From positions 1 through 64,000 of IMG/VR virus record IMGVR_UViG_3300042691_040117: 64,000 bases of DNA. One strand, given 5' to 3'. The translations under genes and the position numbers were made by a program. This DNA comes from a virus. The first letter of the stretch is position 1. Each line of letters starts with the position of its first letter. The notes under the pieces were generated by a model. The model saw only the letters and a program-made list of their open reading frames with translations, did not search any database and was not told the DNA's origin. Shown in pieces: positions 12,359 through 21,215 of this stretch.

Positions 12359-12928
12359 TTACTTACACGATTCTAAAATACCTTGAATTAAATCTGAAAC
12401 TGGACCAGGTAGAAATGGAAGGCTACTTAAAGGAGATCCATAACTCATTTCACCTAACATTTTAATCATATGATTGGAAGCAATATCAACTCCAGCCTGA
12501 CCACTTAAACATAATTTTGTTCCGGAAATAACAATATTATCACCGGTTGCTAATGTAATTTGACCATTTGCAGAAACCTGAAAAGTTCCATTATTTTTTG
12601 GTCCATTTGTCTCTATGAAAATATTTTTTGCCTTTAATTTAATATTTCCATTCACAGAAGTTATACAAATATCTCCGTTTCTTGCAACTATGGACTTTGC
12701 AATATTTTCCTTTTGTGATCCATCTAGTTGATCTCCACATATTTCATCAAATCTTTGTGGGACGCGAATTGTGGTATTTCCATTCTCATTGGAATGCTCA
12801 ATGTATCCACCCTTGGTCACTAAAGTAAATTCAGAACCTTCATCAGGTTTGTTATTTGCTCCACCTGGACCAAAAAACATTACTCCATGTGGATTATTAG
12901 TAACTGTATATTCTGGTACTCTACTCAT
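12359..12928 (-). CDS. Putative baseplate spike-like protein (189 aa)
   Basis: From about residue 80 the protein shows short alternating beta repeats: GDICITSVNGNIKLKAKNIFI, then GQITLATGDNIVISGTKLCL. These resemble the intertwined beta-helix of the T4 gp5 C-terminal needle and VgrG spikes. The N-terminal 70 residues may form a connector (NNPHGVMFFGPGG). No enzymatic motif. It lies two genes from the gp5-like OB-domain gene, so needle and OB module may be separate chains here. Call based on repeat pattern and context. Confidence 0.5.
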   Translation of the reverse strand: MSRVPEYTVTNNPHGVMFFGPGGANNKPDEGSEFTLVTKGGYIEHSNENGNTTIRVPQRFDEICGDQLDGSQKENIAKSIVARNGDICITSVNGNIKLKAKNIFIETNGPKNNGTFQVSANGQITLATGDNIVISGTKLCLSGQAGVDIASNHMIKMLGEMSYGSPLSSLPFLPGPVSDLIQGILESCK

Positions 12929-14592
12929 TTTTTAACACAATCAATTACACGAATTAAGTTTTCAGATTTAAAGTTTCTGGCAGATTGAGAGTTAAATTGT
13001 TCGACCTTATTAACTCTGGTGAAGTTTAAAATTGGACGTATCCTTGCACCGGATCCTGTATTACTATTTATGGTAATTTCTGGAATCTGATTTAAATCGC
13101 ATGGAATATTACTTATATCAATTGCAACAATCTGCCCCTGGGAAGTTAATTTTATACTAGCTTCGAGATTTGGTACATCAGGATTAATTGTAACCGTATC
13201 GTTAATAGTATACCCAATTCCTGTACCTATAATCTCAAATTTGGTTAAGCATCCTACATACTCTCGAACTTCAACTTTTACAGGTTCCTCTGGAGTTACT
13301 TCTCCATCACCACCACCGTCAGCGCCACCGTCAGCGCCTCCAGCGCCAGTATCATTTATAGTTGGATTTCCATACTCATCAAGTCCATCCGGAGAAGTTA
13401 AATAACCACCACCAGGATTTACAATTACAATGCTTTCAACTTGTCCAGACTCATTAATAACCGAATATGCAGAGGCATAATTTCCATTATCACAACTATC
13501 AGAAAATGTAACAAATGGTGGTGAAGTGTACCCCTCTCCACCATAAATTAGGTCAACCCCAACAACTTGCCCAATACTATTCACAATTGCATTTCCTACG
13601 GCACCTATACCTCCACCACCAAATATTTCCACATTTGGAAGACCACATGCATAAGGATCTGTATTACAATTTAGTGGACCTGCATAAGTGTTAGAATCCT
13701 CGCCAAAAAATTGTGCAAGGGCATCGTCAGCCCCCTGAACAATAGAACTGGAATTTGGAACAGATGCAAAATTATTAAAATTATCTATTTCTGATCGAGT
13801 AGGACCTCCCCATGGTCCTTGCTTAAAGGATTTAACCTCTGGACAATTTGGTTTTTGGCATAGAAAAGCTTCAAATCCTAAAATAAAATCAATTGCCTCA
13901 AAAATTGATCCTGCAATTTGAGCTACTCCTCCCAGAACATCATTAATACTATCTAAAACCGGTTGAATTTCATTATCTATTACTGTTGCAATATTGTTGA
14001 TAAGAGCATTCGTAAACCCTTCTACTGCACAAAAAACTGGATTTAAAATTTCTTGAACAAATGCATAAAGAAAATCAACAACTAAATCAACTAACCCATC
14101 AATAATTTTATCAAATGCACATAAAATTTGCTTTATAACTTCATCAATAACTAGATCTTTGAAAACTTTAGCTATTGTTGGGAGAAGATATTCTATAACT
14201 ATTTGAATTAATTCTCTAATCTTCTTCATTAACCAATTTCTAGCTCTTTGAATTAGTATTTTTAAAATTGATGCAATAATATCGGCAGTTTGACTGATTA
14301 AATTAGTAATATTTTGAATTTTATTAATAGTTCCGAATACATATAATTCACCATATTTTTGAATTCCTTTAAGTGCAGTAAAGAAATTCAAAAGAGCCGT
14401 ATCAATTTGAGCTAGAGTACCTTTTCCACAAGTATCAGGTAAATCTATTTTTAAATCTGTTAGGTATGATAGAGTGGCAAATGCTTCCGTACCAAGAAAT
14501 GTCTCAGAATCTGGAGCATTGGAAAAATTCCAAGATATATCAGATTGTTGATTGGTGCCATCAAATGGAATTACTGGAATTTTTGTTGCCAT
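12925..14592 (-). CDS. Large virion structural protein of the tail hub operon (555 aa)
   Basis: Residues about 80-290 are predominantly helical and amphipathic (isoleucine/leucine-rich; IIASILKILIQRARNWLMKKIREL). A beta-rich C-terminal half follows, with two glycine-rich YGGEGYTSPP / NPGGGYLTSP repeats, an acidic glycine stretch near residue 415, and a YTINDTVTINP segment. The YxSPP/YxxSP repeats recur in cyanophage virion proteins. No T4 homologue is recognised. A perfect late promoter (TATAAATA) lies just upstream, pointing to late, abundant expression. Candidate baseplate or hub-associated protein. Confidence 0.6.
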   Translation of the reverse strand: MATKIPVIPFDGTNQQSDISWNFSNAPDSETFLGTEAFATLSYLTDLKIDLPDTCGKGTLAQIDTALLNFFTALKGIQKYGELYVFGTINKIQNITNLISQTADIIASILKILIQRARNWLMKKIRELIQIVIEYLLPTIAKVFKDLVIDEVIKQILCAFDKIIDGLVDLVVDFLYAFVQEILNPVFCAVEGFTNALINNIATVIDNEIQPVLDSINDVLGGVAQIAGSIFEAIDFILGFEAFLCQKPNCPEVKSFKQGPWGGPTRSEIDNFNNFASVPNSSSIVQGADDALAQFFGEDSNTYAGPLNCNTDPYACGLPNVEIFGGGGIGAVGNAIVNSIGQVVGVDLIYGGEGYTSPPFVTFSDSCDNGNYASAYSVINESGQVESIVIVNPGGGYLTSPDGLDEYGNPTINDTGAGGADGGADGGGDGEVTPEEPVKVEVREYVGCLTKFEIIGTGIGYTINDTVTINPDVPNLEASIKLTSQGQIVAIDISNIPCDLNQIPEITINSNTGSGARIRPILNFTRVNKVEQFNSQSARNFKSENLIRVIDCVKK

Positions 14593-14607: not shown

Positions 14608-15126
14608 TTAACTGTTATTTATATTGAGCTTTATACCCTTGGCTGCTTCCCAATCTCCTATAGGAATTTCAGATCCAACAGAACTAGTTGGTTTTGCTCC
14701 AGATTTTGTTTGATGAAATGCAGCTTCTACTCCAGAAGTATATTTGCTAACAGTTTTGAAATATGTACTTCCGTCTTTACTTTCGTTTAATCCACGTTCA
14801 TCAGTATTTCTTGAAAGAACATGAGTAATGACTGGAACTTGATTTCCTTCATCTAAAAAAAATCCTATCACCCATTCTCCTGCATATATGCCAGTGGACC
14901 CTCCACTATAATTTCCTTGACTCGTTGGTTTTGCAATAATTGCCCATGGTAAATTTTCATCAGTAACCTCACCAACATCATGAATTCCTGGAATTCTAAC
15001 TTTAACTCTACTAGACCATGCCTCTTTTATCCAATCTGCATTTTTAGAATGCTCATTTTGATCTGGAGGAACCTGACCAATGAACCATCGATATGAAAGA
15101 CCAGCAAATCCTACATTTGCAGACAT
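14608..15126 (-). CDS. 5: Baseplate hub, gp5-like OB-fold protein (172 aa)
   Basis: The N-terminal part has YRWFIGQVPPDQNEHSK followed by RVKVRIPGIHD and LPWAIIAKP. This is the pattern of the T4 gp5 / VgrG OB-fold domain that joins the hub to the spike. It is followed by GEWVIGFFLDEGNQVPVITHVLSRN, another OB-fold hallmark. At 172 aa it is far shorter than T4 gp5 (575 aa): neither the lysozyme domain nor the C-terminal needle is present. A needle-like protein is coded two genes downstream and peptidoglycan hydrolase domains are in the 674-aa protein upstream, so the gp5 functions may be split between genes. Confidence 0.75.
   Translation of the reverse strand: MSANVGFAGLSYRWFIGQVPPDQNEHSKNADWIKEAWSSRVKVRIPGIHDVGEVTDENLPWAIIAKPTSQGNYSGGSTGIYAGEWVIGFFLDEGNQVPVITHVLSRNTDERGLNESKDGSTYFKTVSKYTSGVEAAFHQTKSGAKPTSSVGSEIPIGDWEAAKGIKLNINNS
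14616..14623 (-). promoter_or_regulatory. T4 late promoter (perfect TATAAATA)
   Basis: An exact TATAAATA octamer on the minus strand, 23 nt upstream of the 555-aa gene and inside the 3' end of the gp5-like gene. One of two exact matches in this window in the right place for a promoter. Confidence 0.7.
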
Positions 15127-15132
15127 TATTGA

Positions 15133-16410
15133 TTAACCTGCTTTACTAGTATATAGACCATATGTATCACGAACAAGAGTTAATGAAGTGAACGATCTTT
15201 TGGGTGTAAAATCGTGACATAAATTCAATATTAAGTAGTTTCCACTTTGAGTTGGATCTGCATATCCTTGTTCTTTTGATCCTTGGGTTATCATTTCAAA
15301 CTCACAACGAATGACATCTCCAGCACGAAGATTAGGATTGCATGGAACAGTTATAGAAATAATTTGAGTAAATAAAAGATTATATCTTGTACTTGATGTT
15401 GCTTGATATTCTTTTGGATCATTATTAATTTCACCTGCAGCAGTTTTTTCCAAAGTTCCAATATCCACAATATGATAATGAGTTCTTGTGAAACTATTTT
15501 CTGTCGGAATATCTACATCCTTTCCTAGAGAACTTTTTAGACCATCTTTACCCAATTCAGTTATAATTTCAGCATACTCTAAAGTCCGTGGATCAAAAAA
15601 GAGATTTCTGCTAAGATAAACTCCAGATTTAAGAGCATTAATTACATTTTGATTTTTTTGAATTGAAACTGAAGCCATTTTATAATCATTAGAATCATTA
15701 TCTATTGAAGATTCGAGACCATCATTACGGTAGTAAACAGATTTTGGTGCCGTCGAGATTAATTTATCGATTGCTTTGTATTTAAATCCATCTTGTGTTT
15801 CATAAAAGAAGAATCCTGACAATCCTTCGGATGGGATTGTTTTTGGTCCAAGAGAGCATATAATTTCAAATGGATTACGACTGTTTCCTATAAAATTATA
15901 AGAATTTTTAACTTCATCTACATCAACTTTATCTGAAGAAACTTCTAGATAATCCGATAAAATTTTCTTTACAGTATTTCCAATATTTCCTCTATACTTT
16001 GCAAAAACAGTTGCTTCTTGATTTTTAATGGCAGATTCGGAAACTAAATCTAAAGTTACAATTTGCCTAGTTCCTTGATCTGCACCTGGAGGAGATACTC
16101 CATTTACCAGTAAAGGATTTGTTGTAAAATCTAACGTTCCTAATTTTGATTGTATTTTAAATTTTATCTTTTCTGCCCCTGTGATGGGTAATCCATTATA
16201 TACTGTCGTAATTCTCTCCTGGGGATCATATTTTGAATCAGCCTTTATTGATCCTCCAGTATCAACAAACGACATCGATGCTGTAATATTCGGAGACAGT
16301 AAACTTTCATAATAAGAAAACTTAACCGTTGCTGGTCTCAAATCAACAGTTTTCCCATCTTTGTCGATGGTCATTATTTCGTAAATAGAGGGTGAAGATG
16401 CATTTGCCAT
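15133..16410 (-). CDS. 27: Baseplate hub protein, gp27-like (425 aa)
   Basis: Begins with SIYEIMTIDKDGKTVDLRPATVKFSYYES, then a TASMSFVDTGG segment that looks like the first tube-like barrel of T4 gp27. The middle includes a NSYNFIGNSRNPFEIICSL region seen in cyanophage hub proteins. The C-terminal barrel ends in PNLRAGDVIRCEFEM and SGNYLILNLCHDF, typical of gp27/gpD-type hub proteins. Length (425) is close to T4 gp27 (391). It is next to the gp5-like gene, as hub partners usually are. The assignment rests on pattern and gene order rather than strong identity. Confidence 0.7.
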   Translation of the reverse strand: MANASSPSIYEIMTIDKDGKTVDLRPATVKFSYYESLLSPNITASMSFVDTGGSIKADSKYDPQERITTVYNGLPITGAEKIKFKIQSKLGTLDFTTNPLLVNGVSPPGADQGTRQIVTLDLVSESAIKNQEATVFAKYRGNIGNTVKKILSDYLEVSSDKVDVDEVKNSYNFIGNSRNPFEIICSLGPKTIPSEGLSGFFFYETQDGFKYKAIDKLISTAPKSVYYRNDGLESSIDNDSNDYKMASVSIQKNQNVINALKSGVYLSRNLFFDPRTLEYAEIITELGKDGLKSSLGKDVDIPTENSFTRTHYHIVDIGTLEKTAAGEINNDPKEYQATSSTRYNLLFTQIISITVPCNPNLRAGDVIRCEFEMITQGSKEQGYADPTQSGNYLILNLCHDFTPKRSFTSLTLVRDTYGLYTSKAG

Positions 16411-16415
16411 TTAAT

Positions 16416-18440
16416 TTATACTCTCCAAAGTTCAGATAATGAAGGTGATGATGGTGCTTGTACTATAGTTTTTTGTGGGACGGGAAATTGCATTGGAAAA
16501 GGAACGGCAACTTCTTCCTTTTGATTTATCATATAAACTACAGTCCTAGTATCTTGACCACCATCAGGTATATTTAATGAAGTTTTTTGTGGCGGCGGAG
16601 GTAATACTGGTGTCGGTGGTGGTTTTGCTGGTTGTTGCCCAGATTTAACAACCTCAATTTTGGCAGAACCGGAAGGAATAACACCAGTCCCCTTCATTCC
16701 AAGTGCTTCAGCAGCAGCATTACTTAAATCAACAACCCTACCTGATATGTATGGACCACGATCCTTAACTGGAACAACGATTGACTTTCCTTTCCAAGTA
16801 ATTCTTAATAGGGTTCCAAATGGTAATGATTTATGTGCAGCCAAGAAGCTTTCTGGAGTATATTTTGTTCCATCGGCAGTTTTGTTTCCATAAAATCCAG
16901 GTCCGTACCAACTGATTTCTCCACTTAAAGATCCTGTAGGAGTAACTTTTGAGGGATCAATTTTAGCAGTTGGTTTAGTTTTTGCATCTTTTTCTTTTTG
17001 TTTTTTCTCCAACTCTTTCATTTTTTCTGGATTTGCTGGACCAGCACTTAAATGCCCAAGCAAATATGAATTATTTTGAGAATCTTTTATGATTACAACA
17101 TTTCCATAACCAGCATTTTCACCAGAATCATAAGTAGAGAATTTTAATCCACCTGTTAATTGAATTGGAGTTCCTGATGGAATTTCATAATCAAATCCTC
17201 TATGGTCTCTCCCAGCACCTATTCCATCTCCCATTTTCCATTTATTTAATGATTTTCCACCAACGATGATATTGCTTAAAACTTCAGTTGGTATAGATCC
17301 ACCAGCACCCCCATATCCATTACCAGTTTCAATATGAATATGTGGACCAGTGGATCTTCCAGTACTTCCAACAAAACCAATTATTTCCTTCCCCGGTATA
17401 AATGAACTACTATAGTCATCACCAAAATCTCCAGGACTTTGGGGTGATCTAGTAATCTGTTTTTTATCATCATCTTTATCATCAAATAAAGATGGCATAG
17501 ACTTGATATTAATTGCTAATTCTTCAAATTTTTTATTATTTTCTTCATCTATTTTTGAAATGGCATCAAAATTATCGGTGGTTGTTTTAAAGACTTCAAA
17601 ATAATTGACTGATTGCCTTGCTGCCTTTGCCCTTCCAGTTTCACCTTGAGTGAAAGTTTGTGATTTTATTTTTGCGGAAGATACTTTTCCACTTTGTACT
17701 TGAGTTCCTCTAGTAACCTCCCCACCTTTGGCATATCCTTTTGGTTTAGGAGCTTGTGGATTAGAAAATGTAGGTGATTGCGGTTTTACTTGAGTTGCCG
17801 GATTAGCATATCTTCCATATCCAGAAGTATTTTGAAAATTTGTTTGTGATGGTGTAGATCTAGGTTGTGAATTTTGTTGACTTGGTTTTTTACCAAGATC
17901 CGACATAAAACCAAGTAATGATACGTCCATTGACCCTACCATTACATTTAAATTTTGAATTTCTCTTGTAATATTATCTCTTTGTTTAATTATTTGTTGT
18001 TGAGTTGCTCCGGCAAATGCTGAAAATCCGTTTACTAAATTAATAATACCAAATATTCCATCACCTATAACTTTAAATAAAAATTTAACCCCGTCAATTA
18101 TCCATTTATTGTCGGAGAAAAACTTTTGCAATCTTTCGATAATTGTTGGTAGATTGTTTATCAAAATACCCAATAATATCGTTCCGGCAAAATTCATTAT
18201 CTTATCAAAAAGACTCATTGGTCCTGATAAAATACTTGATGTAATTTTATTAATTCCCGTTCTTATTGCCGATGTTTCTATTTTTTTCTCTTTTTGTTTG
18301 GATTCTTCCTGTTTCTGTTGATTGAATATTATCCTTCTTTTTTGCAATCGCAAAGATCTAGATTCAGAGTTCTTTCTGATAAGAAAACTGTTAATATTAC
18401 TAACGTTTAATTTTAATTGCTTCGTTTGTGCTACAATCAT
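16416..18440 (-). CDS. Tail protein with permuted M23 peptidase and RlpA-like domain (674 aa)
   Basis: Domains in order: basic coiled region (1-60); hydrophobic tape-measure-like segment (about 65-140); low-complexity linker (190-280); an M23 zinc endopeptidase whose C-terminal motif (GSTGRSTGPHIHIE, about 360-370) comes before its N-terminal motif (HRGFDY, about 411-416) and the GHLS motif (about 463); then a double-psi beta barrel of RlpA type (about 500-600) with SWYGPGFYG, AAHKSLPFGT and KDRGPY. All four M23 metal/catalytic residues are present but in permuted order. M23 enzymes cut peptide cross-links; RlpA barrels cut glycan strands. Proposed role: local peptidoglycan opening during DNA injection. 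A proline-rich C-terminus follows. Its N-terminal region resembles that of the next gene. Confidence 0.75.
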   Translation of the reverse strand: MIVAQTKQLKLNVSNINSFLIRKNSESRSLRLQKRRIIFNQQKQEESKQKEKKIETSAIRTGINKITSSILSGPMSLFDKIMNFAGTILLGILINNLPTIIERLQKFFSDNKWIIDGVKFLFKVIGDGIFGIINLVNGFSAFAGATQQQIIKQRDNITREIQNLNVMVGSMDVSLLGFMSDLGKKPSQQNSQPRSTPSQTNFQNTSGYGRYANPATQVKPQSPTFSNPQAPKPKGYAKGGEVTRGTQVQSGKVSSAKIKSQTFTQGETGRAKAARQSVNYFEVFKTTTDNFDAISKIDEENNKKFEELAINIKSMPSLFDDKDDDKKQITRSPQSPGDFGDDYSSSFIPGKEIIGFVGSTGRSTGPHIHIETGNGYGGAGGSIPTEVLSNIIVGGKSLNKWKMGDGIGAGRDHRGFDYEIPSGTPIQLTGGLKFSTYDSGENAGYGNVVIIKDSQNNSYLLGHLSAGPANPEKMKELEKKQKEKDAKTKPTAKIDPSKVTPTGSLSGEISWYGPGFYGNKTADGTKYTPESFLAAHKSLPFGTLLRITWKGKSIVVPVKDRGPYISGRVVDLSNAAAEALGMKGTGVIPSGSAKIEVVKSGQQPAKPPPTPVLPPPPQKTSLNIPDGGQDTRTVVYMINQKEEVAVPFPMQFPVPQKTIVQAPSSPSLSELWRV

Positions 18441-18443
18441 TTC

Positions 18444-20324
18444 TTATACAAAAATTCCGTATAAAGATGGTGTTAGTATCATGTAAGGATTTGATGAATT
18501 TGATGATGGTATTGATGGAACGTATGATGCTGGTGCTTGTGGTATGTTAATTTTTGGTATTGCTGCCTTTTTAGTTGGAAGATTTATTGGTACTATTACT
18601 GGAGATGAATTTGATGATGATTTAGTAATTTGCTGTATAGAAGACGATCTAATTGGAAGTGGTACTATATTTACATTATTTTGAACGGGACTTATATTTA
18701 CGTTGGGGATTTTTTGAATTATATTATCATACATTTGACCACCTTTTTGACGACCAACCTGTCCACCTACCCATCCACCCCCAGGAATTCCGGTTGATTT
18801 GCCTTGTTGAGTTCCAATAACTTGACCTGCCGCTTCAAATAATGGTCTTCCAAATCCACCACCAGACGCAGATTTCTTTAAATTTTTCTTTTGTTTTTTC
18901 TGCTCAAATGTCTTATTCAAATCTTCAAGAATAGTCGAAAATCTTTCAGAATTGCTTTGCTGTAAGGATGTGACTTCCAATAATTTTGTTACAGCCTCTC
19001 TAAAGTAATTCCACAATCTCCCAGCATTCTCATTAATATCACTTAAAAGCGGTCTAAACAATTTAGATGCTGCTGTACGAATAACATACTCGCCAGGAGC
19101 AAGCATTGCAGGAACACTATCAACTGTTCCACTACCAGATCCACCGACACTTCCACCTTGAGAAAATGAGGGAATAATAGAACATTTGGAGCATTTTTTA
19201 GGTGATATATCATTAATTAATCCACCTCTAGATGCTTTTTTAACTTGAGGATAATTTGGTAAAGTTTGCCCAAGAGCTGGTGAAGACACCATGGGCAATA
19301 CTATTTGTCGAATTGCTTCAATAATAGCCCCCCAGATTGCTGGAGAAAGACCTGGGGGATTGGGTTGATACTGTGGTTGTGGATTTAAATTTGGTGACGT
19401 CGGTGCCGGTGCTGGAGTAGTTTTAGGTACTGCAGGAATATTGAGAGGTGCTCCGGCCGGACCAACTAAAGGAGGTAATGGTAATGGAACTACACCTTTG
19501 GCAATACCTTCTATAGTACCATAAACTTTTGGATTGGACCTCATATAATATGAGAGAACATTCGCAAATTCAGGTGCATTCTTTAAGCATTTTAAGATTG
19601 CGGAGCAATCCATTGGTCCTGCACCACCAGAAAGCTTTCCTTTTCCTTTTAATAAATCAATAGCACCTTTAATTCTTTTAACAACACCAATTACACCAAG
19701 CAATCCCCCCAATAATTTTCCAGCTATTAATGTTCCTACTATCCACTTCCAATGATCTGCTAAAAATTGAAAAAATACCTTTACTTTTTCCTGGTTTTCT
19801 TTTTTAGATAACCAATTTAAGGCAGTATTGACAGCCAGTCCGGTTAGAATTGTTTTAAAAAATTCAATAATCTTTTGAAACAAACTTTTAGCTGGAGTTA
19901 AAACCTTATCTACTTGTCTGAAAAGACCTTTCCCTATACTCTGAACACTTTCTAGTGCTGCTTCTTTATTATAGGCAGCCTTTCTAAATTTTTGTTTCTT
20001 TACTTCTCCTATTTGCCTTCTATCTTCTGCAATTCTTGTCGAAAAATCAATCGCCAATTGGTTCTGTATTTCTACAAGAACTCTATTTGTTTCTATTAGT
20101 GATTCATTTAAACTTTTAATTACGCCTAAAGATAAATTATCAGCATTCAATTGCTCAGAAATTATATTCGGAGATTGAATATTCTGTTTTCTAAATCCGA
20201 ATGTAGATTTTTTTACTTGTAAAGGCTTAGAAAAAGAAGTCCTCCCCGCTAATGGGGAAGATATATTTTTTCTACTTAATTTTGGTACTGATGGTGCCCT
20301 ATAGATTGGATAATTATAATCCAC
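18444..20324 (-). CDS. Putative tape-measure-like tail protein (626 aa)
   Basis: N-terminus basic and polar, then a long helix (residues 55-115). A hydrophobic region at about 140-225 includes ILTGLAVNTALNWL and GTLIAGKLLGGLLGVIGVV. The middle is proline-rich. VPAMLAPGEYVIRTAASKL near residue 410 is a motif typical of tail tape-measure proteins. The C-terminus is low-complexity. Length is similar to T4 gp29 (590 aa), and the position between gp26 and hub genes matches the T4 26-51-27-28-29 neighbourhood, though the order is not the same. Likely tail-lumen or hub protein. It shares an N-terminal module with the 674-aa neighbour. Confidence 0.6.
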   Translation of the reverse strand: MDYNYPIYRAPSVPKLSRKNISSPLAGRTSFSKPLQVKKSTFGFRKQNIQSPNIISEQLNADNLSLGVIKSLNESLIETNRVLVEIQNQLAIDFSTRIAEDRRQIGEVKKQKFRKAAYNKEAALESVQSIGKGLFRQVDKVLTPAKSLFQKIIEFFKTILTGLAVNTALNWLSKKENQEKVKVFFQFLADHWKWIVGTLIAGKLLGGLLGVIGVVKRIKGAIDLLKGKGKLSGGAGPMDCSAILKCLKNAPEFANVLSYYMRSNPKVYGTIEGIAKGVVPLPLPPLVGPAGAPLNIPAVPKTTPAPAPTSPNLNPQPQYQPNPPGLSPAIWGAIIEAIRQIVLPMVSSPALGQTLPNYPQVKKASRGGLINDISPKKCSKCSIIPSFSQGGSVGGSGSGTVDSVPAMLAPGEYVIRTAASKLFRPLLSDINENAGRLWNYFREAVTKLLEVTSLQQSNSERFSTILEDLNKTFEQKKQKKNLKKSASGGGFGRPLFEAAGQVIGTQQGKSTGIPGGGWVGGQVGRQKGGQMYDNIIQKIPNVNISPVQNNVNIVPLPIRSSSIQQITKSSSNSSPVIVPINLPTKKAAIPKINIPQAPASYVPSIPSSNSSNPYMILTPSLYGIFV

Positions 20325-20490
20325 GAGGTTGTTGCTTTAGGTTCTCTTCTTCGATATAATTTTTCAATAAACCAATATACACTTCCCTTTCCCAAGGAAT
20401 CATATTTTCAAGCTCAGTCAAAGAATATTTATGATGCTGAATTAACTGAAAATTAGTTTGATAGTATGACTCAAGGTTAGTATGAGCCAT
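20314..20490 (-). CDS. Small tail assembly protein (58 aa), gp51 position
   Basis: A small protein containing YYQTNFQLIQHHKYSLTELE followed by MIPWEREVYIGLL and an acidic helix. The NMIPWERE(I/V)Y motif recurs in small proteins downstream of gp26 homologues in T4-like phages. It begins 2 nt past the gp26 stop and its end overlaps the next start by 11 nt, so it is translationally coupled. The position is that of T4 gp51, a hub assembly catalyst, but 58 aa is much shorter than gp51 (249 aa). The functional name is therefore not assigned. Confidence 0.65.
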   Translation of the reverse strand: MAHTNLESYYQTNFQLIQHHKYSLTELENMIPWEREVYIGLLKNYIEEENLKQQPRGL

Positions 20491-20492
20491 AC

Positions 20493-21215
20493 CTAACTGA
20501 AAAAACTTGCAAGACCCTCCAGAACAACTTCACTTTGGACATCAGTCTTTGGATTTTTTACCTTTACAGTATGGGAAAGTTTGGGCATTGTTGTAAAGAA
20601 ATTTTCAATTTCTTTAAATTGCTTTGTATTTAATTGTTCGATAAATTCATCAAGTTCTTTTTTGGTACAGTCCGAAGCACTCCAAGATTCTTCCTGATCA
20701 TATATTGTATCAATACATGAAGTGATCATTGACAATGATTTATTAACATCATTATTAGTTTCATTAACTTCAAAATTACTTTCTACAAATTCGTTTAGTG
20801 ACGGATATTTCAATTTCATGGACAAATTATCATCCAACTTTATGACATTTTTATGTTCTTCTGATCTTTGAACTTTGATATCGTCAATATTAATTTCAAC
20901 GCTGACAATTGTCTCTTCATCATCTGGGCAAGTAACATTTACTTCTATTGTTTCCCCGACAGATTTAGATCTAACATTTAAAAACAAATATTCAATATCA
21001 AAAGTTGATAATTCAGCGACATTAACTCCTTTTGATAAAATACAATCATTTAAAATTTGGACAACGGCACCAGAAATATCTTTGATATTCTCGGATTCGA
21101 GTGCCATAATCAGAATTTTTTCTTCTCTAACTAAAAATGGACGATATTTAATTTTTTTCCCTGTTGAAGGCAATTCCAACTCATAAGTCGGTGTAGAAAT
21201 CTTTGGTAAAGGCAT
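20493..21215 (-). CDS. 26: Baseplate hub assembly protein gp26
   Basis: Begins MPLPKISTPTYELELPSTGKK, then IKYRPFLVREEKILIMALES. This N-terminus is characteristic of the T4 gp26 baseplate family (Pfam T4_baseplate). The middle contains NCDDEE-type acidic loops, and the C-terminus is helical with EFIEQLNTKQFKEIENFF. At 240 aa it is close to the usual length (T4 gp26 is 208 aa). In T4, gp26 works with gp51, gp28, gp29 and gp27 to build the hub. It is preceded by an AATAAATA late element. A confident family assignment. Confidence 0.85.
   Translation of the reverse strand: MPLPKISTPTYELELPSTGKKIKYRPFLVREEKILIMALESENIKDISGAVVQILNDCILSKGVNVAELSTFDIEYLFLNVRSKSVGETIEVNVTCPDDEETIVSVEINIDDIKVQRSEEHKNVIKLDDNLSMKLKYPSLNEFVESNFEVNETNNDVNKSLSMITSCIDTIYDQEESWSASDCTKKELDEFIEQLNTKQFKEIENFFTTMPKLSHTVKVKNPKTDVQSEVVLEGLASFFS

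Follow-up and report, generated by a model that had tools for sequence, protein, structure and literature searches.

The window, a stretch of 64,000 nucleotides from a viral record of 70,920 bases, carries on its minus strand a tail module. A 674-aa protein, named here P0001, is encoded in this module between the gp26/gp51 positions and gp27, and this position supports the original prediction of a tail protein. The features of the locus are listed below (residue numbers are those of P0001).

12925..14592, minus strand: second part of the gp5-like protein, lysozyme domain not found (phrog_1922, E 1.4e-53; no enzymatic Pfam match)
14608..15126, minus strand: gp5-like OB domain protein, lysozyme domain not found (Gp5_OB 21.7 bits, below cut-off; phrog_1922, E 4.4e-24)
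15133..16410, minus strand: gp27-position hub protein (phrog_350, E 4.9e-84)
16416..18440, minus strand: P0001, 674-aa ORF, tail-module protein with permuted M23 domain and RlpA-type barrel, in the slot of P-SSM2 T4-GC14 (gene order kept in relatives)
16674..16922, minus strand: RlpA-type double-psi beta-barrel of P0001, residues 507-589, with H536 and D560 (DPBB_1, E 1.6e-18; PDB 4avr, E 1.1e-18; A-1(L) hub 8kea, E 6.2e-16)
17043..17219, minus strand: M23 "head" half, from HRGFD (H413, D417) to GHLS (H463), residues 408-466 (PF01551 profile 2-54 at 17043-17207)
17220..17321, minus strand: linker between the former C- and N-termini, residues 374-407, containing a shared GGK.L motif (alignment of 27 sequences)
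17322..17393, minus strand: M23 "tail" half, GKEIIGFVGSTGRSTGPHIHIETG with H367 and H369, residues 350-373 (PF01551 profile 66-87 at 17325-17390)
17895..18440, minus strand: N-terminal region of P0001, residues 1-182, predicted helical (full-length AlphaFold2 model, low confidence)
18444..20324, minus strand: 626-aa protein, partly paralogous to P0001, in the P-SSM2 T4-GC13 slot, with a tape-measure-like VPAMLAPGEYVI segment; relatives sometimes carry a glucosaminidase or a tail lysozyme
20314..20490, minus strand: small ORF of 58 aa at the gp51 position (translation; position as P-SSM2 gp51)
20493..21215, minus strand: gp26-like baseplate hub protein (PF12322, E 5.1e-75)

The same slots are occupied in P-SSM2 by gp26, gp51, T4-GC13, T4-GC14, T4-GC15 and T4-GC16, and P0001 is thus the protein of the GC14 slot; the GC14-slot copy of P-SSM2 itself gave no enzyme match. 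The block composed of gp26, the 626-aa type, the permuted M23 protein, the gp27-like and the gp5-like proteins was found in approximately 16 contigs, some of them cut by contig ends. The 58-aa ORF at 20314-20490 (minus strand) had escaped the ORF cut-off of 80 aa. The paralogy between P0001 and the upstream 626-aa protein concerns residues 35-138 (E 4.6e-5). Tape-measure profiles match the body of this neighbour and, in P0001, solely the M23 motif. Tape measures are long helical proteins that occupy the tube of the tail; the N-terminus of P0001 is helical in the full-length model, which has a low pLDDT of 50 and is uninformative beyond the M23 domain. In S-SKS1, the protein adjoining gp27 (L212:3490-4602, minus strand) has a tail lysozyme followed by HEHIAF and then HGANLAID, resembling M15-type motifs in reversed order; it showed no significant match to the Bellamy copy.

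T4 gp5 is composed of an OB fold, a lysozyme and a beta-helix, whereas the gp5-like ORFs of the window have no Pfam lysozyme match, and neither PF18013 nor PF00959 was detected anywhere in the record. The gp5-like protein of P-SSM2, though annotated as a lysozyme, has no Pfam lysozyme either, nor has gp5 in three relatives where it is longer than in the window (L012, L110 and L114). From these sequences, a gp5-like protein without lysozyme may be the norm in cyanophages. Judged by gp26 and gp27, the isolates closest to this virus are Synechococcus and Prochlorococcus phages; the nearest record is a Kyanoviridae contig from a marine single cell. The closest isolates make a cyanobacterial host likely, in agreement with the cyanobacterial target announced by the original prediction, though short of proof; psbA was not found in the record.

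An M23 domain with its halves in reversed order

The M23 motifs of P0001 succeed one another as GSTGRSTGPHIHIE (358-371), HRGFD (413-417) and GHLS (462-465), the distance between H367 and H413 being 46 residues (about 45 had been announced). The positions characteristic of PF01551 are all present: H413 and D417 in the zinc motif HxxxD, H367 and H369 in the HxH of GxTGxSTGPHxHxE, and H463 in the HL motif. Four key residues were said to be kept; their retention is true, but the catalytic and zinc positions kept are five. The usual linear order HxxxD ... HL ... HxH is replaced by HxH ... HxxxD ... HL. Accordingly arranged, Peptidase_M23 appears in P0001 as two Pfam stretches (E 4.2e-10), the longer of which, 412-466, matches positions 2-54 of the profile. 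When the whole 70,920-base record was searched in six frames, the only M23 matches were 17325-17390 (profile 66-87, E 3.7e-5) and 17043-17207 (profile 2-54, E 1.2e-6). Because reading on the minus strand meets 17325-17390 first, the C-terminal half precedes the N-terminal half. The check for a second, normal M23 domain, which would have spoken against a permutation, detected none in the record.

The domain sequence was then joined to its own copy and rescored with the M23 profile. The single copy of P0001 obtains 44.6 bits in two pieces and the doubled sequence 84.1 bits in one contiguous match (profile 2-87 of 96, E 8e-24), a gain that is, by profile score, far beyond chance. Doubling restores the usual M23 order, and the domain is therefore a permuted variant and not an ordinary member. 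The domain of the relative L012 behaves like that of P0001 (47.0 to 89.8 bits). In a phmmer search of the PDB, the doubled domain aligns contiguously to 6muk/3slu (61.6 bits) and also to LytM, zoocin A, 6smk and lysostaphin; the old loop after HLSAGPANP joins GKEIIGFVG with almost no gap.

The structure prediction that had been proposed as a check on the M23 block gave, with AlphaFold2 and 27 sequences, a single confident domain (pLDDT 86, pTM 0.83), and such a confidence would be unlikely for a model of two unlinked halves. Foldseek retrieved no M23 structure from the PDB with this model; its alignment follows the sequence order, and this result thus neither favours nor excludes the M23 fold. 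Among viral models, Foldseek matched S-TIM5, an internal virion protein of Synechococcus phage P60 and an uncultured tape measure. A frameshift or a broken gene is ruled out by the reading frame, open throughout, and by the retention of all catalytic residues. The M23 order of P0001 is confirmed as real: as predicted, the domain is permuted rather than broken, on the evidence of the doubled-sequence test and of the same order in 21 clusters of relatives.

Distribution and exchange of the permuted domain

Relatives were drawn from scans of viral contigs, genome contigs and a phage collection. The suggested search for homologues with the same order was successful, T4-like cyanophage relatives included: 58 distinct domain sequences were obtained, forming 21 clusters at 80% identity, every one in permuted order. 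A permutation limited to one phage is ruled out by these clusters. The order, the cut site and the linker recur in T4-like cyanophage relatives, in the S-TIM hubs, in Acinetobacter and Moraxella tape measures and in a Leptolyngbya tape-measure gene. H367, H413, D417 and H463 are invariant in the alignment (27/27), and the position of H369 is occupied by His in 24/27 sequences and by Asp in 3/27 (the three Acinetobacter sequences); P0001 and every cyanophage-type relative aligned retain all five positions. HxD replaces HxH in sequences of Acinetobacter, Moraxella and Leptolyngbya (L018, L007 and L127), the last zinc ligand being Asp in three groups. A linker with a GGK.L-like motif is common to the relatives, and P0001 aligns across it, in one piece, to the Acinetobacter tape measures. 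An HMM built from 72 ordinary M23 domains matches the tail before the head in the permuted proteins tested, the matches of P60 and of the truncated L083 being weak. Relatives were absent from the first genome-contig scan, the second yielded an Acinetobacter copy and Leptolyngbya PCC 7375, and a tblastn search of the phage collection with the L012 domain gave no match.

A tree was obtained from the rotated permuted domains and the 72 ordinary ones. All 32 permuted sequences (32/32) lie on one side of a branch with an SH-aLRT value of 97; computed by a fast method from 114 columns, with ordinary sequences taken from a single search, this tree is consistent with one origin of the permuted M23, and no more. 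Residues 450-484 of S-TIM66 (L001), and their equivalents in S-TIM5, S-TIM54 and L017, form a weak M23-like piece upstream of the permuted domain (hmm 67-93, iE 0.0015), possibly a remnant of the duplication behind the permutation. The hub-like proteins of L017 and L083 appear to combine the permuted M23 with an amidase-like segment (AGHADFPSGAPNE..., recognized by eye; baseplate match phrog_30576), to which L017 adds a tail lysozyme. In the podophage P60, the internal virion protein gp33 (L209 4778-7780) displays a weak tail lysozyme (PF18013, below cut-off) and then a possibly degenerate permuted M23 (GPHLD ... GSFGVDF).

The hub-like proteins of S-TIM66 (L001 4402-7458) and S-TIM5 (L206 2453-5446) are near-identical and differ by the permuted M23 domain alone. 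Their flanks are 99.1% and 99.3% identical in DNA, whereas nucleotides 1587-2016 of S-TIM66 show no detectable DNA match to S-TIM5 and about 45% amino-acid identity, both versions being permuted. With flanks about 99% identical around a divergent domain, the permuted M23 is thus a unit of exchange. The partner enzyme is also swapped. Through the end of the M23 domain P0001 and L006 share approximately 56-59% identity, and at the C-terminus 50-54%; between these regions, the RlpA barrel of P0001 is replaced by a phage tail lysozyme. Phage_lysozyme2 partners the permuted M23 in L006, L015, L017, L048 and S-TIM66, and is found in the upstream paralogue of L105. Glucosaminidase is present in L010 itself and in the upstream paralogue of L014 and L108. 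Lysozyme-type phrogs occur in L011, L014 and L108, partners of the relatives including a lambda-type lysozyme, and one follows the permuted M23 in the Leptolyngbya tape measure. No glycan-cutting domain was detectable in the permuted-M23 proteins of L012, L110, L111 and L124 or in the neighbouring proteins tested, so that peptide and glycan cutters commonly, but not obligatorily, come as a pair.

We give about even chances to the reading in which the permuted M23 is a distinct lineage, born once by duplication and trimming, and now an exchangeable cassette among unrelated phage tails, freely combined with glycan-cutting domains. Its carriers would be myophage hubs, GC14 proteins, Acinetobacter and Moraxella tape measures and possibly podophage internal proteins.

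Proposed peptidoglycan-cutting role of P0001

The second domain of P0001 is the predicted RlpA double-psi barrel. DPBB_1 (PF03330) matches it with 67.1 bits for a cut-off of 28.8, and the motifs AAHKSLP (534-540) and KDRGPY (559-564), which contain the conserved H536 and D560, are shared with the RlpA/DPBB_1 lytic transglycosylases (PDB 4avr). RlpA is a free-standing bacterial lipoprotein; in P0001, the barrel is internal and fused to a peptidase, and neither a lipoprotein form nor a Pfam SPOR match was found. This barrel would work like RlpA but is not RlpA. Bacterial RlpA cuts bare glycan, as the original prediction states. That restriction may fail for phage barrels: the barrel domain of the Anabaena phage A-1(L) hub alone lysed EDTA-treated cells (PMC10966104).

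The A-1(L) hub gp15 (PDB 8kea) is, like P0001, a cyanophage tail protein with an RlpA-like barrel and a peptidase domain. It differs from P0001 by its barrel placed first and by its M23 tail motif at 862-882 of 899, thus in ordinary order; moreover, gp15 is a trimeric hub and P0001 a GC14-slot protein. Its barrel ("endoglucanase") and peptidase domains are both lytic for Anabaena cells, and lysis is reduced when conserved residues are mutated (PMC10966104). The virion structural proteins of S-TIM5, S-TIM54 and S-TIM66 (AEZ65701, UYE97289, UYE96869) have the permuted M23 with the same cut site, together with a phage tail lysozyme; unlike P0001, they are hub-like, and their permutation is undescribed in the literature searched. 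The Acinetobacter (R3177-type) and Moraxella tape measures share the permuted order and the linker motif of P0001 (GGKxL, GK.L in Moraxella), but have Asp for the last zinc His and a tape-measure context.

P0001 is, with good probability, a tail-module component bearing two peptidoglycan-cutting domains, the first of which has the M23 zinc endopeptidase fold in a truly circularly permuted form. Its new termini would fall in the loop that runs from the HL motif to the strand preceding GSTG, and some 34-40 residues would connect the old C-terminus to the old N-terminus. Zinc would be bound by H413, D417 and H369, with H367 and H463 as putative catalytic residues. The permuted M23 would cleave peptide crosslinks and the barrel glycan strands, and during tail contraction or DNA ejection both would open the cell wall locally. 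By analogy, the two-activity reading is supported because relatives pair the permuted M23 with glycan cutters and the A-1(L) hub lyses cells, and P0001 most likely opens peptidoglycan during entry. Of the two-activity tail tip enzyme originally proposed, the pairing recurs in relatives and is active in vitro in the A-1(L) hub (PMC10966104), but P0001 may be, instead of a tip enzyme, a protein of tape-measure type. The idea that it replaces a lysozyme missing from gp5 is only partly supported, and not in the form originally given: a Pfam lysozyme is lacking in the gp5-like protein of P-SSM2 too, and several relatives have the permuted M23 with no glycan cutter detected.

It is rather unlikely that P0001 is mainly a tape-measure or central tail protein whose enzymes act only inside the envelope during ejection, or at lysis, and not at the tail tip on entry. 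The upstream 626-aa neighbour matches tape-measure families, and the permuted M23 lies inside annotated or profile-matched tape measures of Acinetobacter phages and Leptolyngbya; the S-TIM relatives, however, carry it in a large virion structural protein, and this alternative is about location more than chemistry, being compatible with the main claim. We consider improbable a permuted domain that is catalytically dead or only binding, docking on peptidoglycan or activating another enzyme as LytM factors do (e.g. EnvC), with the barrel alone cutting. P60 gp33 has apparently lost the histidine of HxxxD and Asp stands at the last zinc ligand in the Acinetobacter, Moraxella and Leptolyngbya types, but the five positions are intact in P0001 and all aligned cyanophage-type relatives, and degenerate LytM factors usually lose them. 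It is very improbable that the halves are what is left of two M23 domains, broken or in tandem, or that they complete one another across the subunits of an oligomer: tail central proteins are often oligomeric and the S-TIM hubs have the extra upstream piece (iE 0.0015), which is also expected if the permutation arose via duplication, but a pTM of 0.83 was reached on one chain, halves and linker are conserved jointly in 21 clusters, S-TIM5 and S-TIM66 exchanged the halves as a single block, and the record has no further M23 piece.

Compared with ordinary M23 domains (PF01551; lysostaphin, LytM, NMB0315/3slu, ShyA), the true permutant of P0001 shares all five active-site positions and the strand sequences, and differs by the reversed halves, the linker of 34-40 residues between the old ends and the position of the new termini, past the HL motif. 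The M23 enzymes rank with the most thoroughly studied peptidases of the cell wall. The open-licence literature searched describes no circular permutant of M23, LytM or lysostaphin, nor one in tape measures, an absence that is not proof; the 2022 review of the family (PMC9662197) contains no word beginning with "permut". Permuted NlpC/P60 proteins (YaeF, LRAT-like) are a natural permutation of a peptidoglycan-peptidase family, but their cysteine-peptidase fold is unrelated to M23 (PMC6403190). The permuted M23 is a conserved module common to many phages and undescribed in the literature searched, within a family itself known. Profile tools return it as fragments or below cut-off, so that annotations of phage tails probably miss part of this activity. 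Natural domain boundaries are marked by the block exchanged between S-TIM5 and S-TIM66 and by the swapped glycan cutters; they can guide the expression of cyanobacterial cell-wall enzymes and help to ask why this way of connecting the termini is favoured in phage tails.

In several Synechococcus phages (L089, L090, L091, L092 and L208), RlpA-like proteins are encoded by small stand-alone genes, in S-PM2 near a putative lysin, which suggests a role in lysis.
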